Shown: in pieces, positions 26,717 to 64,000 of the stretch
How positions within the stretch are numbered: position 1 is the stretch's first letter
How the letters are laid out: each line of letters begins with the position of its first letter
NCBI GenBank assembly: GCA_022766785.1
Contig: JALEOL010000031.1
Span: 1 to 64,000, forward strand
Length of the DNA: 64,000 nt
Reading direction: 5' to 3'
DNA from: Oscillospiraceae bacterium
GTDB lineage: Bacteria > Bacillota > Clostridia > Oscillospirales > Ruminococcaceae
Translations under genes and position numbers: made by a program
The notes under the pieces: model-generated
What the model saw: only the letters and a program-made list of their open reading frames with translations
Told to the model about the DNA's origin: nothing
The model's database searches: none

Positions 26717-27124
26717 ATGACGATAAAGGAAGTAAGCGAGCGTTACGGGATATCCCAGGATACGCTGCGGTATTACGAGAAAGCAGGGATGATACCCGAG
26801 GTGAACCGCACCGCCGGTGGTATCCGGGACTACAGCGAGAACGACCTTGGCTGGGTGGAGCTTGTGCTCTGCATGAGAAACGCAGGGCTGTCTACCGGCA
26901 GCATTGCGGAATACCGCAGGCTTTATCAGCAGGGGGACTGCACTATCCCAGACAGGCTGAAACTGCTGACCGACCAGCGCGAGGAGCTTCTTTGCGCTCA
27001 GGCGAGGATCGCTGAAACGCTGGAGCGGCTCAACTATAAGATAAGCGTGTATGAACGCGCGGTAAAGACCGGGATCCTTTCCTGGGACGAGCAGGGAAAA
27101 TGCAGTGGCGATGATGACAGATAA
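26717..27124 (+). CDS. MerR-family transcriptional regulator
   Basis: TIKEVSERYGISQDTLRYYEKAGMIPEVNR. Confidence 0.92.
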   Translation: MTIKEVSERYGISQDTLRYYEKAGMIPEVNRTAGGIRDYSENDLGWVELVLCMRNAGLSTGSIAEYRRLYQQGDCTIPDRLKLLTDQREELLCAQARIAETLERLNYKISVYERAVKTGILSWDEQGKCSGDDDR

Positions 27125-28721
27125 ATTCACGGCACGGCTGCGGCAGGGCAGCATTGACATCGGGTGTATACAGGATCAGGGCGCCCGGGAATATCAGGAG
27201 GACTCGGTGGGCTTCTCTACGCTTCCCGGTGAGGGAACGGCGGAGCGCTTCCTGGCGGTGGTCGCGGACGGAATGGGCGGAATGGCGTCCGGCGCGTTCG
27301 TGAGCGGCTATACCGTCAAAAACCTGCTGGCGGCGGACATCGGCTCTCCGGAGGAGCTAAAAGCTGCGGCGTGCAGGATAAGCGGCGAGATCGCAGCGGG
27401 AGGAAGCCGCGGAGGGACTACGCTTGCGGCGGTTTGCGTGCTCCCCGGAGGAGTGTATTTCTGCTCCGTGGGGGACAGCCGGATTTATCTTTTCCGGGAC
27501 GGCGTTCTCGCCCGGCTGACGGCGGATCAGGACTACATGTCGGTTCTGCTGGACAGGGTGATAGACGGAAAGATAAGCTGGCTCCAGGCGCAGGAGGATC
27601 CGGAGCGAAATGCGCTGGCGCAGTTCGTGGGGAGCGGCATGCTGCTTAGCCCCGATATGAACTGTGTTCCGCTGGCAGTACAGCCCGGGGACAGGCTGCT
27701 GATATGCAGCGACGGGGTGTATAACGCGCTTTCGGAAGCGGAGCTGAGCCAGTCGCTTACCCTTACGGCAGGTGGAGCGTCGGAGGATATCCTGGGGCGG
27801 ATACTGGCGCACGGCTATACCAATCAGGACAATTTCACCGCGGTGGTGATGCATTTCCTGCCGGGGTGGAATTCTGATGATCGTTCAGACGATGTCCCGG
27901 CGGAAAAAACCACGTTGCATATCGACAGCGCATTCCACACCGGTGCCGGAGGACGGGACGAGAACCAGGACGCGCTGTTCTGCGGCGGCGGAGTTTACGC
28001 GGTTGCAGACGGACTTGGCGGACACAAAAACGGCGGAAAGGCTGCCCGGGCGGCGGTGGATCATATTTCGGCGAGATCCTCCGGCGATCTCTCCCCGGAG
28101 GGGGTAAACGCTCTTTTTGAGGGCGCGAATACTGCGGTGGGACGCACCGGGGGGAAAGCTGCTGCCGCGGCGGCGTTCGCAAGGGACGGTGTGTTCACCT
28201 GGGGACATGTAGGAGACTGCCGGGTGTATTACTTCCGCGGCGGCAGGATCACATTCCAAACCCGGGATCATTCGGTGTGCCAGGCGGCGGTGGAGCTGGG
28301 GCAGATCACCCCGGAGGATATCCGGGGCAATGAGGATCGCTCGGGGCTTATGAAAGCGCTTGGCAGCGAGCCGGAGCTTGATATTCGGGAGCACTGCGAG
28401 CCGCTGGGAATGCTCCCGGGGGACGCGTTCCTGGTGTGCACGGACGGGTTCTGGGAGCATGTCCACGAGCGTGAAATGGAGACGGATCTGATAAAATCCC
28501 GGAGCGCTGCGGAGTGGCTCAATTCCATGCTGAAGCGGCACATGCTGAGCGCCCATGACAGCGGCGACAATTACACCGCGGTGTGCGGAATAGTCACCAA
28601 CACCCCGGAGCCGCAGGAGACCTCCCCGGTCAGGCAAAAGCGCAGATTTCCTGTGTTGATCCCGTTGGGGATAGCGGCTTTGGCGGCGGTAGTTATCGTG
28701 ATATTGCTTTTCTTTCGGTGA
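27105..28721 (+). CDS. Tandem PP2C (PPM) serine/threonine phosphatase domains with C-terminal TM
   Basis: Two full motif sets: VADGMGG..SVGDSRIYLF..CSDGVYNAL..NQDNFTAVV and VADGLGG..HVGDCRVYYF..CTDGFWEHV..GDNYTAVC; C-terminal hydrophobic helix; exact start uncertain. Confidence 0.9.
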   Translation: MAMMTDKFTARLRQGSIDIGCIQDQGAREYQEDSVGFSTLPGEGTAERFLAVVADGMGGMASGAFVSGYTVKNLLAADIGSPEELKAAACRISGEIAAGGSRGGTTLAAVCVLPGGVYFCSVGDSRIYLFRDGVLARLTADQDYMSVLLDRVIDGKISWLQAQEDPERNALAQFVGSGMLLSPDMNCVPLAVQPGDRLLICSDGVYNALSEAELSQSLTLTAGGASEDILGRILAHGYTNQDNFTAVVMHFLPGWNSDDRSDDVPAEKTTLHIDSAFHTGAGGRDENQDALFCGGGVYAVADGLGGHKNGGKAARAAVDHISARSSGDLSPEGVNALFEGANTAVGRTGGKAAAAAAFARDGVFTWGHVGDCRVYYFRGGRITFQTRDHSVCQAAVELGQITPEDIRGNEDRSGLMKALGSEPELDIREHCEPLGMLPGDAFLVCTDGFWEHVHEREMETDLIKSRSAAEWLNSMLKRHMLSAHDSGDNYTAVCGIVTNTPEPQETSPVRQKRRFPVLIPLGIAALAAVVIVILLFFR

Positions 28722-28730
28722 TATGAAATA

Positions 28731-28967
28731 AGGGGCTGCATTGTTGCAGTCCCTCAGTTTGTCGAAAAAGTTCATTTTGCCTGCGAAGCAGGCTTTTGAA
28801 ATTTGTTTTTTGCCACGGGTCTCCCGGGGCAAAAAACACTGCTATCCGCACAAGTGTGCGAATTGTCGGCATCGCCGACAATGAGCGCGCGTAGTGCGGA
28901 TGTTCGGCGGAAAAGTCCCAACGGGACTTTTTCGACGGTCTGTAAGGGGCTGCTTTTTGCAGTCCCT
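28731..28967 (+). mobile_element. Terminator-bracketed structured element, copy A (core 28755-28944)
   Basis: Core homologous to 59202-59389 and 63647-63814; flanked by AGGGGCTGCATTGTTGCAGTCCCT and AGGGGCTGCTTTTTGCAGTCCCT. Confidence 0.8.
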
Positions 28968-28972
28968 TTGTA

Positions 28973-30364
28973 TTATTGCTGACCCCGTGATAGCTCCGCC
29001 TTTTTCATCAGACGCAGTTCCACGATGATGAGAATTATCGCCGCCGCCGCAGAAAGCAGGTCTGCGAACGGGCCTGCCCACAATATCCCGTCTATGCCGA
29101 AGAATATCGGCAGCACTATCATCGGCGGAAGCAGGAAGATTATCTGCCGGGTGAGCGACAGGAACACGCCCTTGACCGACTTTCCTATTGAGGTGAAGAA
29201 CATCGAAGCGATCGGCTGAAGGCAGTTTAGCCAGGTGAAGAACAGGAACACCCGGAAAAACTTCACGCCGAACTCGAAGTATTCCTCCGAGCCGTCCCCG
29301 AACATCGCGATGATCTCCCGCGGAAACAGCTGGAACATCACGAACGCCGCTATCGCAACTCCTGCGCCGATAGTCACCGCCATTCGCAGCGCTTTGCGCA
29401 CCCGGGGGTATTTCTCTGCGCCGTAGTTGAAGCTGATTATCGGCTGAGCGCCCTGACCCATTCCGATAACTATCGAAAAGGTGATCTGGTTCACTTTCAT
29501 GACTATCCCGGAGACCGCGATAGGTATCGACTCGCCGAAAGCGGACAGCGCGCCGTAGTGCCGCAGCAGGTTGTTCATCGCGATCTGGACGATCATCATC
29601 GCTATCTGGTTGAAGAACGAAGCCATACCCACAGAGATTATCCGGGAGGTGTACCCCCACCGGACGCGCAGGTGCTTCAGGCGGAGACGGACTGTTTTGT
29701 AGCGCGCAATGCAGACTATCGCCACGATCCCGGAAATGACCTGCCCGATAACTGTCGCCCATGCCGCGCCGCTCATTTTCCAGTCGAAAACCAATACGAA
29801 CAGCGCGTCCAGAGCGGTGTTGATGCCTGCGCCCAGCAGATTGCACACCATGGTCATTCTGGGGTTGCCGTCCGCGCGGATAAGATGACCGCCGCCGGTG
29901 GTAATTATCATGAAAGGAAATCCCAGCGAGGTGATCCTGACATATTCCTCCGCCAGCGGAAGCACGTCCGCCGGCGAGCCGAACAGCTTCAGCAGCGGCG
30001 TAAGAAAAAGCTGAGTGATTGTGAGCAGCACCACGCCGCATATCATCATCATTACCGCGGCGTTGCCGACGAAATAGGGGGCTTTTTCACGCTCCCCCCT
30101 GCCCATGTTCAGGTTGAAGCAGCTTGCGCCGCCGATACCGAACAGCAGCGCCAGTGACAGGCAGGAGGTGGAGAACGGGAACGCGATATTTGTCGCGGCG
30201 TTTCCCAGCTGACCCACGGCGTGTCCTATGAAAAGCTGGTCAACGATATTGTACAAAGCACCAACCAGCATTGCGATAATGCTGGGCACGGCGAATTTTA
30301 TCATCAGAGAGGCTATCGGGGCGTTGCCCAGAAGCTCTGAACGGTCTGTTTTTTCTGTTTCCAT
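28973..30364 (-). CDS. MATE family efflux transporter
   Basis: 12-TM pattern; IASLMIKFAVPSIIAMLVGALYNIVDQLFIGHAVG. Confidence 0.92.
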   Translation of the reverse strand: METEKTDRSELLGNAPIASLMIKFAVPSIIAMLVGALYNIVDQLFIGHAVGQLGNAATNIAFPFSTSCLSLALLFGIGGASCFNLNMGRGEREKAPYFVGNAAVMMMICGVVLLTITQLFLTPLLKLFGSPADVLPLAEEYVRITSLGFPFMIITTGGGHLIRADGNPRMTMVCNLLGAGINTALDALFVLVFDWKMSGAAWATVIGQVISGIVAIVCIARYKTVRLRLKHLRVRWGYTSRIISVGMASFFNQIAMMIVQIAMNNLLRHYGALSAFGESIPIAVSGIVMKVNQITFSIVIGMGQGAQPIISFNYGAEKYPRVRKALRMAVTIGAGVAIAAFVMFQLFPREIIAMFGDGSEEYFEFGVKFFRVFLFFTWLNCLQPIASMFFTSIGKSVKGVFLSLTRQIIFLLPPMIVLPIFFGIDGILWAGPFADLLSAAAAIILIIVELRLMKKAELSRGQQ

Positions 30365-30497
30365 TTTATCACTCTTTCTTTTGAACTCCACGGTATTATT
30401 TTACCACACCGCCGGGAAAATGTCAATTGTGCTTGAAAAATCAGCCATAATAGTATATAATATATAATGAACGTAATTCAGGGAATGGGGTGAGCCT

Positions 30498-58698: not shown

Positions 58699-59145
58699 AT
58701 GTCAGATATGAGTAACGAGAAAAGCACCGGGGAGCTTTTAGAGATAATCAGGGAGCAGTCCTCATTCGGGAGCGCGCATGACATGATACGCTCCGAGCAG
58801 ATAACCGAAACTCTCTCAGAGCTGCTCAACAGGACTGCCGCCGAACGTGGAGCGAAGCTGTCCGATATAATGAAGCGCTCCGGGCTGAAAAAGGCTTATT
58901 TCTACTCGCTTTTCAACGGCACGCGCACAAATCCGGCACGGGATATCCTGATACAGCTGTGCTTCGGCTTTGAGATGAGCTTTGAGGAGGCGCAGAGCTT
59001 CCTTACGAGCACCGGCGCCGCTCCGCTCTATCCCAGGATACCCAGGGACAGCGTGCTCATCTACTGCTTTCAGCACTTGCTGACGCTGACGGAGAGCGAC
59101 ATTCTTCTGCTTGAAAACAACGAGTCGCCACTTTCCAAAGAGTAA
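58699..59145 (+). CDS. XRE-like helix-turn-helix protein
   Basis: ERGAKLSDIMKRSGLKKAYFYSLFNGTRTNPARDILIQLCFGFEMSFEEAQSFL. Confidence 0.8.
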   Translation: MSDMSNEKSTGELLEIIREQSSFGSAHDMIRSEQITETLSELLNRTAAERGAKLSDIMKRSGLKKAYFYSLFNGTRTNPARDILIQLCFGFEMSFEEAQSFLTSTGAAPLYPRIPRDSVLIYCFQHLLTLTESDILLLENNESPLSKE

Positions 59146-59176: not shown

Positions 59177-59414
59177 GACCGCCGTGCAATGCATGGCGGT
59201 TCAGCTTGTCGAAAAAGTCTATTTTGCCTGCGAAGCAGGCTTTTGAAATCCGTTTTTTGCCCCAGCTCTGCCGGGGCAAAAAACACTTCTATCCGCACAA
59301 GTGTGCGAATTGTCGGCTTTGCCGACAATGAGTGCGCGCAGTGCGGATGTACTCTGTCGGAAAAGTCGTAAGACTTTTTCGACAGACTTGACCGCCGTGC
59401 AATGCATGGCGGTT
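59177..59414 (+). mobile_element. Terminator-bracketed structured element, copy B (core 59202-59389)
   Basis: Exact 25-bp direct repeat GACCGCCGTGCAATGCATGGCGGTT (itself a hairpin) on both sides of the core. Confidence 0.85.
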
Positions 59415-59591
59415 TTCGCTGTTTTCTGAAAATATCTGCAAAATCCGCCGTGTGGCTGAAATTTCCTGAACAAAATCGCAAAAAACATTTGACAAATCGG
59501 AAAAAATATGTCACAATATAATAGAAGTATTTTCCCCGGGCGGAGGGCTTTTCGTTCCCGGGACAGGCACACGGCATTGGAGTTGGATAAC

Positions 59592-61214
59592 ATGACATTT
59601 TTAAAAAGAGCAGCGGCGGCGTTATGCGCTGTCATGGTGGCGGCGAGTACTCTGTCGGCGTTCGCGGAGGACGGCGGCGCAGGACTTGCGGTAGACCCCG
59701 GGACTGAGACCTCTGTGATAGAGACCGGCGACCCGGGTTCGGGGGAGACCTCGGTGATAGACACCGGCACCCCCGAGACCACGATAGTTGACCCCGACGA
59801 GGGAGACGACCGGAAAGACAACAGCAGAAGCTCCCTGGACGTCGCCGATGAGCAGTATTCCGAGATCGACCTCACCGGCTGGACGCAGTGGGACGGAAAA
59901 ACCAAAATGGTCTCCGGTACGAATTACTACATAGAGGGCAAGGTAGCGCCCCGGCAGAATTTCACTCTCCCCCAGGATAGCAGGCTGGTGCTGAAAGCCG
60001 GCTCTCAGCTGGTGGTGTATAAGACCAGGACGTTCAGCGTCCGGGGCATAATCACCGTGGAGCCGGGCGCGGAGCTTATCACCTCGGGAAAGCTCACGAT
60101 CTACAGCAAGGCAGGCATTGAGAACTACGGCTCGTTAAAGGGCACTGTTAATTCCACCCTGCGCATATCCGGCGACCTCATCAACCGCAGCAGCGGTAAG
60201 GTGATATTGTCCGGAACGGTCAGCGTTTACAAGAGCGGCGTCCTGCTGAACTACGGCGAGACGGCGTTCACCACAAGCTCACAGGTCAAGGTGACCGGCG
60301 ATTTCCAGACTCCGGAGACCGGGCGGTTCATATGCAGCGGCTATTTCGCGGTGACGATAAACGGCAGGACTACCCAGGCTGGCTATTTCTCGCTGACCGG
60401 CGAGGTGGTGAACAGCGGCGTGTTCATATTCGAGCGCACCGTGAGGTATTACAAATCGAAAGCGGCGAAATTCTCCGTTTCAAAGAGCAGCCGCCTGATA
60501 GACTACCGCCACAGAGACCCCTCCCAGCCGCTGCCTGACACCGGCAATGACGACGGGAGCGACCATGAGGAGGACACCGACGTCGGGATAAAGGGCATTG
60601 ATGTTTCCTACGCCCAGGGAGCCGTGGACTGGCAGAAGGTCAGGGAGTCGGGGGTTGAGTTCGCGATGCTGCGCGCCTCCAGAGGGCCGGTGAGCGACAC
60701 GCGCCCGGCAGCCGAGGATACCACGTTCCAGTACAACGTCACCGAGGCGGCAAAGGCAGGGCTGGAGGTCGGCGTGTATCATTACCTTTACGCACACACC
60801 GTGGAAGACGCCGTTGAGGAGGCGAAGTTCTTCATCAAGACCATCAGCCCGTATAAGATAACCTACCCCGTGGTGCTGGATATCGAGGAGCAGAGCCAGG
60901 CGAAGCTCGGAAAGAAGCAGGTGACGAAGATAGTCAAGGCGTTCCTGGACGAGGTGTCCGCCGCAGGCTATTATGCGATGCTGTATTCCAACAAGACGTG
61001 GCTCACCCAGTATCTCGACATGTCGCAGCTTTCCGGGTACGAGGTATGGCTGGCGCAGTGGAACACCGTGCCTACCTACAAGGGAGAATTCGGCATGTGG
61101 CAGTACAGCTGCAAGGGCATTGTTTCCGGAATTGACGGGTATGTTGACCTCAATCTCTCATACAAGAATTACGCAAAGATAATCAAAAAAGGCGGTTATA
61201 ACCACCTGTCATAA
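59592..61214 (+). CDS. Secreted GH25 (lysozyme M1-like) muramidase with N-terminal repeat region
   Basis: Signal peptide; GIDVSYAQGAVDWQKVRESGVEFAMLRASRG, YPVVLDIEE, WLAQWNTVPTYKGEFGMWQY. Confidence 0.9.
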   Translation: MTFLKRAAAALCAVMVAASTLSAFAEDGGAGLAVDPGTETSVIETGDPGSGETSVIDTGTPETTIVDPDEGDDRKDNSRSSLDVADEQYSEIDLTGWTQWDGKTKMVSGTNYYIEGKVAPRQNFTLPQDSRLVLKAGSQLVVYKTRTFSVRGIITVEPGAELITSGKLTIYSKAGIENYGSLKGTVNSTLRISGDLINRSSGKVILSGTVSVYKSGVLLNYGETAFTTSSQVKVTGDFQTPETGRFICSGYFAVTINGRTTQAGYFSLTGEVVNSGVFIFERTVRYYKSKAAKFSVSKSSRLIDYRHRDPSQPLPDTGNDDGSDHEEDTDVGIKGIDVSYAQGAVDWQKVRESGVEFAMLRASRGPVSDTRPAAEDTTFQYNVTEAAKAGLEVGVYHYLYAHTVEDAVEEAKFFIKTISPYKITYPVVLDIEEQSQAKLGKKQVTKIVKAFLDEVSAAGYYAMLYSNKTWLTQYLDMSQLSGYEVWLAQWNTVPTYKGEFGMWQYSCKGIVSGIDGYVDLNLSYKNYAKIIKKGGYNHLS

Positions 61215-63137: not shown

Positions 63138-63172
63138 ACCCCTGCGCAGAAAAACGCAGGGGGTTTCTTTAT
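63138..63172 (+). terminator. Terminator after the ABC ATPase gene
   Basis: CCCCTGCG-cagaaaaa-CGCAGGGG GTTTCTTT. Confidence 0.7.
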
Positions 63173-63603
63173 TCCAGGATTATCGTAAACGGACCGTCGT
63201 TCACAAGGCTGACTTTCATTTCCGCGCCGAATTCTCCGGTCTGGACATTCGGCACCGACCGCCGGCATACCTCCACGAAATACTCGTACAGGCGCTCTGC
63301 CTCCGCAGGCTCCTTTGCCTGGAGGAAATTCGGGCGGTGTCCCTTGTGTGTGTCGGCGTAAAGAGTGAACTGGGATATCACCAGCAGCGAGCCGCCCACG
63401 TCCTTCAGCGAGAGATTTATCTTGCCGTTATCGTCGGAAAAGATACGAAGCCCGATCATCTTAGCCGCCAGGCGTTCGCAGTCAGCTTTGGTATCCTCCT
63501 GACCTACTCCCAGAAGCACCATGAAGCCTTTGTCTATCTGCCCGACTGTTTTTCCGCCCACGCTTACCGAAGCGCTGTCGCACCGCTGAATTACCACTTT
63601 CAT
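63169..63603 (-). CDS. dtd: D-aminoacyl-tRNA deacylase
   Basis: MKVVIQRCDSASVSVGGKTVGQIDKGFMVLLGV, LLVISQFTLYADTHKGHRPNF, GEFGAEMKVSLVNDGPFTIIL. Confidence 0.94.
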   Translation of the reverse strand: MKVVIQRCDSASVSVGGKTVGQIDKGFMVLLGVGQEDTKADCERLAAKMIGLRIFSDDNGKINLSLKDVGGSLLVISQFTLYADTHKGHRPNFLQAKEPAEAERLYEYFVEVCRRSVPNVQTGEFGAEMKVSLVNDGPFTIILE

Positions 63604-63624: not shown

Positions 63625-63836
63625 AGTGCACCGCAGGGGGTGCACTCAGTCTGTCGAAAAAGTCTTACGACTTTTCCGACAGAGTACATCCGCACTGCGC
63701 GCACTCATTGTCGGCAAAGCCGACAATTCGCACACTTGTGCGGATAGAAGTGTTTTTTGCCACGGGAGACCCGTGGCAAAAAACGGATTTCAATTGGTCA
63801 TTTTCGACAAGCTTAGTGCACCGCACGGGTGTACTT
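63625..63836 (-). mobile_element. Terminator-bracketed structured element, copy C (core 63647-63814, internal deletion)
   Basis: Reverse complement of copy B core lacking ~20 bp; flanked by AGTGCACCGCAGGGGGTGCACT and AGTGCACCGCACGGGTGTACTT. Confidence 0.8.
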
Positions 63837-63863
63837 ACATTATAAGATAAACCGCCGGATTTG

Positions 63864-64000
63864 TCAACCTCCGATAACGGACATCGGATCTATCCACTTG
63901 CCGCCCTGCTTTACTCCCAGGTGGAGATGAGGCTCCTGCACTATCTCTATCTGGCAGGTGTCAGAGGTCTTGCCGATAGTGGCGCCCTCGCTGACCTGCT
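63864..64000 (-). CDS. C-terminus of an M23-type peptidase (partial)
   Basis: minus strand ...QVSEGATIGKTSDTCQIEIVQEPHLHLGVKQGGKWIDPMSVIGG*. Confidence 0.75.
   Translation of the reverse strand, partial: QVSEGATIGKTSDTCQIEIVQEPHLHLGVKQGGKWIDPMSVIGG

Follow-up and report, generated by a model that had tools for sequence, protein, structure and literature searches.

Most DDE transposons generate a short target duplication of fixed length, given by the spacing of the two cuts. The published stem-loop-targeting members of the IS1182 family, IS1272 and TnSha1 of Staphylococcus, are reported in the relevant parts of PMC4923244 and PMC5678879 to insert into stem-loops, including terminators, which are deleted with no duplication. 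Both papers refer to a 2015 review according to which some IS1182 members have palindromic targets, hence a palindromic target preference is not new, and Fig 13 of PMC5678879 includes a hypothetical 'pathway b', in which the whole stem-loop would be duplicated if joining occurred at the 5' feet. ISfinder may also list long duplications for some IS1182 members.

The window, i.e. the whole stretch of 64,000 nucleotides that was analyzed, is part of a draft assembly (G000; 2.48 Mb, 112 contigs, about 86% complete). It contains three repeats, A, B and C, which, as judged from sequence comparison, are very probably copies of a non-autonomous MITE cross-mobilised by IS1182, that targets stem-loop palindromes and leaves the whole palindrome on each side. 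A preliminary description had reported a core repeated three times in the window. Direct reading of the sequence and alignment of the copies recovered all of them at the positions noted, with a 26-bp core motif occurring 3 times in the window and 0 times in 100 shuffles, and sharpened the borders, which run from a CAG start to a CTG end (or its decayed form), the hairpin copies abutting the element. The features are the following:

27105-28721 (+) and 28973-30391 (-): PP2C phosphatase gene and MatE gene, convergent neighbours of copy A
28729..28754 (+): left hairpin copy of copy A, TAAGGGGCTGCATTGTTGCAGTCCCT, without T-tract
28755..28942 (+): copy A MITE, 188 bp, ends CAGTTTGTCGAAAAAGT...ACTTTTTCGACGGTCTG
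28943..28967 (+): right hairpin copy of copy A, TAAGGGGCTGCTTTTTGCAGTCCCT, then a T-rich tail
58699-59145 (+) and 59508-61214 (+): 148-aa ORF and GH25 protein gene, neighbours of copy B
59177..59201 (+): left hairpin copy of copy B, GACCGCCGTGCAATGCATGGCGGTT
59202..59389 (+): copy B MITE, 188 bp
59390..59414 (+): right hairpin copy of copy B, 25 bp, identical to the left copy, then TTCGCTGTTTTCTG
63169-63603 (-): dtd gene, downstream of copy C
63625..63646 (-): downstream hairpin copy of copy C, AGTGCACCCCCTGCGGTGCACT, then TTTTC and the dtd ribosome-binding site
63647..63814 (-): MITE of copy C, reduced to 168 bp, one arm of the left-end hairpin missing
63815..63835 (-): upstream hairpin copy of copy C, minus-strand sequence AGTACACCCGTGCGGTGCACT
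63839..63867 (-): sigma-70-type promoter, TTGACA-17-TATAAT, 12/12 consensus, immediately ahead of copy C

The 148-aa ORF beside copy B gave no Pfam match. The promoter follows the stop codon of the upstream gene and precedes copy C, which places this copy inside the dtd 5' leader. Ahead of dtd, a perfect promoter is succeeded by a hairpin, a short T-run and the ribosome-binding site, with the hairpin region now divided by copy C; hairpin and T-run form a possible leader attenuator.

With copy A as query, its own genome yielded 25 matches, which collapse to about 19 elements. The element also occurs in eight genomes of the same genus (G003, G008, G012, G015, G017, G028, G035 and, as one partial copy, G004) and is missing from most other genomes examined, while the exact core motif was absent from the viral contigs searched. 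A typical element measures 188-191 bp, has the ends CAGnnnGTCGAAAAAGT...ACTTTTTCGACnnnCTG and carries imperfect terminal inverted repeats of about 16 bp. It has the attributes of a MITE, being short, multi-copy and delimited by the terminal inverted repeat CAGnnnGTCGAAAAAGT and a target-site duplication, and it harbors no transposase: the listed ORFs of at least 100 aa touching an element run past its borders, and 188 bp are too short for a transposase of about 450-480 aa. If mobility is defined by the ends and the transposase, MITEs with other interiors and similar ends would be expected; these are found, with hairpins duplicated in the same way, in the same genome (L044) and as separate types in G004, G012 and G028.

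Several variants deserve mention. G004 holds many copies of another MITE family, roughly 125 bp long (L080, L085, L086), with related ends CAGCTTGTTGAAAAAGT / CAGGCTGTCGATAAACC and duplicated hairpins. One MITE copy (L016/L022, G000:C92:2603-2856) is split by about 65 bp with end-like repeats of its own, GTCGAAAC...GTTTCGAC, which may be another, very small element. At L017, L018 and L019 (G000:C37, C58 and C35) the MITE centre is replaced by GTAAGGCATAAGGCGTAAGCAGTTGCCAGT, and contig breaks fall inside the element. Two further end-like matches, L046 and L049, appear to be fortuitous matches within coding regions and were discarded, as was a 1.7-kb segment between two end-like sites (L098, G017:C12), with no transposase frame among its ORFs.

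Target duplication was evaluated in 78 copies, 75 of them scorable, by comparing the 45 bp that adjoin the element on the left with the 45 bp that adjoin it on the right. The median score was 23, whereas unrelated flank pairs gave 5, and 65 of the 75 copies exceeded the 99th percentile (9) of the latter. Hence, the locus-specific palindrome previously noted on both flanks in the window recurs throughout this genome and the genus, at most copies, as had been anticipated. The duplicated direct repeat spans 12-35 bp (median 25); it is exact in 42 of the 65 cases, abuts both element ends at 0 bp in 55, and in 61 is adjoined by a T- or A-tract, as at intrinsic terminators. The duplications are mostly palindromic, with a median score of 9 versus 3 in random stretches, a null that is inflated by hairpins in short loci. 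About 10 of the 75 copies show no clear duplication, due to decay, contig ends or another outcome, and the 14-bp duplication of L186 is hardly palindromic. The implied notion that every target is a terminator did not hold, given the position of copy C in the dtd leader behind a promoter and that of L020/L021 (G000:C20:31967-32102), where the palindrome targeted, TACAATATAATTGTA, is not a terminator and coincides in part with a promoter-like -10 region; insertion is therefore not restricted to terminators. The two hairpin copies at L156 (G028:C173:3163-3950) have identical stems, but their loops are nearly the reverse complement of each other (CAGACA versus TGTTTG), so the hairpin may have flipped when the element inserted or the site was repaired.

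Comparison with relatives reveals the sites without the element. At the L009 site, G004 (L248) retains the genes on either side, with one hairpin, ACGTCCGCAGTAC...TGCGGACGT, in place of the element and its two hairpins in the genome of the window, and at the L011 site the homologous sequence of three relatives (L232, L238, L239) contains one hairpin. Together with the flank duplications, these single matching hairpins, which the preliminary description had predicted, support its proposal that a non-autonomous element inserts into hairpins and duplicates them. In most members of the genus, the gene at the L003 site is followed by one hairpin of divergent sequence. The joined flanks of copies A and C revealed no empty site in synteny, since their left and right parts matched different contigs in relatives, and the copy B query gave short matches to the right flank. 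In L216 and L221 the gene of the L003 site is accompanied, where relatives carry a terminator, by an inverted repeat of ~45-50 bp which is little beyond IS1182-type ends, CAGACTGTATATAAACCCG...TTTATATACAGTCT.

These data also bear on an insertion of the IS1272 type, where the element would replace a hairpin and the two flanking hairpins would be pre-existing or coincidental. It has its precedent within the family, as IS1272 and TnSha1, according to the relevant parts of PMC4923244 and PMC5678879, insert at terminators and other hairpins, which are deleted and not duplicated, and in a few related copies the palindrome is indeed one-sided. We nevertheless regard it as extremely improbable, since the same sequence flanks both sides in 65 of 75 MITE copies and in most insertion sequences of the related branch described below, the empty sites of relatives have one hairpin, not two, and exact duplications of 20-35 bp contradict it.

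Concerning orientation, all three copies in the window share one direction relative to the upstream gene, which had been taken as a general feature; it is true of these three only. At tandem-gene sites of the same genome, based on simple ORF calls, the element is forward in L005, L008, L009 and L015 and reversed in L004, L006 and L012, while at many sites the neighbouring genes are convergent and direction is consequently undefined.

The interior of the element is highly structured. In an alignment of 64 copies, the 55 interior pairs, in six helices, are 95.6% paired and 27 of the 55 have changed on both sides, where the cells counted are sequences of related copies and not independent events; this level of covariation was reached in 0 of 500 shuffles, and no slid structure came close. 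The RNA fold of copy A with its flanks gives z = -11.4. Covariation and fold would both suit a conserved structured RNA, i.e. a 3'-UTR or terminator-associated regulator that co-evolved with two hairpins and is not mobile. Such an RNA is nonetheless very unlikely, as the flanks are locus-specific, presence is patchy, gene orientation is mixed, the ends are shared with IS1182 and empty sites exist. Moreover, departures from pairing are about equally G.T and A.C (42 and 51 cells), hence there is no sign of strand-specific RNA selection, and a constraint at the DNA level or arm-to-arm correction fits the interior pairing as well. In the window Rfam gave no match apart from one tRNA, and a class C group II intron, a riboswitch or another known RNA were rejected on this basis.

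As to the enzyme that moves the MITE, no IS1182 transposase gene was found in its own genome, at about 86% completeness in 112 contigs. An autonomous element in the same genome is not required for MITE status. In the MITE-bearing genomes, searches with Pfam PF13751 gave only weak or partial matches, so the transposase was traced through lone element ends. The right end of copy C, CAGTCTGTCGAAAAAGT, is identical over 17 bp to an end in G008 (L099) that adjoins a truncated gene, which encodes DUF772 and partially matches the NCBIfam IS1182 model (147 bits versus a full-length cut-off of 270 bits). A search of the genus with the L099 protein led to L116 and L114, whose ends were read by eye. L116 (G021) is flanked on both sides by the 21-bp palindrome AGCTCCCCGTTACGGGGAGCT, its transposase being apparently frame-shifted near the start. 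L114 (G033) encodes an intact 476-aa transposase with DUF772 and DDE domains, scoring 379 bits against the 270-bit cut-off (NF033551), and has a 34-bp palindrome on both sides, as does L190 (likewise 34 bp); the ends of L114, CAGCTTGTCCAAAAAC and CAGTCTGTATATAAAC, are further diverged from the MITE than those of L116. The expected autonomous relative with matching termini is thus present in genomes of the same genus, namely as IS1182 genes in G008, G021 and G033, and the MITE ends match autonomous IS1182 ends over about 16-17 bp (L116, L099, L269). This agreement suggests that the IS1182 transposase cross-mobilises the MITE.

A preference for terminators or palindromes is likewise seen in class C introns and REP systems, so that a group IIC intron, a RAYT/REP system or another DDE enzyme could be envisaged as the mobilising agent, with ends resembling those of IS1182 by chance, and the lack of an IS1182 gene in the own assembly would agree with it. 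The length of the end match and the unusual palindromic duplication common to IS1182 elements make this highly unlikely. Regarding the intron in particular, the earlier observation that its domains are not visible stands, as no Rfam match was obtained, and the precedent that it was meant to provide is not needed, a DDE transposase being the likely driver.

The palindromic duplication extends beyond the genus. IS1182 elements of Streptococcus varani FF10, with CAGnCTGT-like ends and about 49-55% protein identity, show palindromic duplications of 20-30 bp, and in a class-wide sample elements with CAGnCTGT-like ends (L264, L268, L269, L279) and L263 (CAAACTGT) show palindromic duplications of 22-35 bp, whereas IS1182 elements with GAGGCTGCTGAAAAAG-like ends have non-palindromic duplications of 7-9 bp (L281, L283, L289, L291). 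In the transposase tree, where 20 rows are without label, the labelled rows of the two types form distinct branches with full support (100/100). Further copies (L293, L294, L295, L297, L298, L303) have palindromic duplications of 20-30 bp, and L292 and the ISEfa7-like L300-L302 have the palindrome at the right side only. Two of them, L297 and L298, correspond to genes already present in the tree as rows L262 and L267. These rows are placed immediately outside the labelled branch, hence the trait may predate it. Overall, IS1182 elements with palindromic duplications of 20-35 bp occur in Streptococcus, Acetoanaerobium and the Clostridia at large, and the majority belong to a single, well-supported branch of transposases. 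On these comparisons, the putative driver is a distinct palindrome-duplicating IS1182 branch, present in Clostridia and Streptococcus, with the repeats as its MITE.

Regarding mechanism, an IS1182-family transposase of the DDE type would cross-mobilise the MITE into palindromes able to form a stem-loop, in most cases Rho-independent terminators. One entire palindrome would then remain on each side of the element, so that the palindrome would set the length of the duplication (12-35 bp). That this length equals the palindrome points to a DNA secondary structure being recognised in the cell. By analogy, and from the anatomy of the insertions, a cruciform may be what is recognised, with cutting presumably at both stem feet. 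We give an even chance to the stronger proposal that this IS1182 branch measures structure, and neither sequence nor a fixed stagger: an extruded cruciform would be recognised and both 5' stem feet would serve as joining points, the duplication being one stem-loop of any length. As the distal copy retains the T-tract, the terminator probably survives there, which would make such sites safe. Structure-based targeting would explain how about twenty copies were accommodated, mostly in terminators, without breaking them. If true, the extent of the target duplication would be measured by structure, and terminators would continue to function.

Compared with bacterial MITEs such as RUP, Chunjie and QMITE, as covered in the relevant passages of the review PMC10969869, the element is alike in being short, multi-copy and intergenic, with terminal inverted repeats and a structured interior, and differs in that the target is a palindrome which is itself the duplication. 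The term IS1182 is absent from that review, whose passages on palindromes and target sites describe nothing similar; the relevant parts of the IS1272 and TnSha1 papers (PMC5678879, PMC4923244) contain no MITE, and no publication describing one like this was found in the open-access literature. In a plasmid protein search with the L264 transposase, the nearest named relative was ISEfa7 of Enterococcus faecium (IS1182 family; ends CAGACTGTAGACAAAG), at about 49% identity; in the plasmid copies examined the right flank alone is palindromic, with no duplication seen. Members of the GAGGCTGCTGAAAAAG type share the transposase family and end architecture of the palindrome-duplicating branch, but differ in their 7-9 bp non-palindromic duplications and separate transposase branch. 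IS1272 and TnSha1, as portrayed in the portions considered of their descriptions, resemble the MITE and its putative driver branch in their IS1182-family transposase, in stem-loop targets chosen by structure and not by sequence, in terminal repeats of about 16 bp and in inserting in either orientation. They delete or replace the stem-loop, whereas the MITE and its IS1182 branch duplicate it whole, and a pathway only drawn as a possibility for IS1272 thereby gains many natural examples, and transposases with which to test it.
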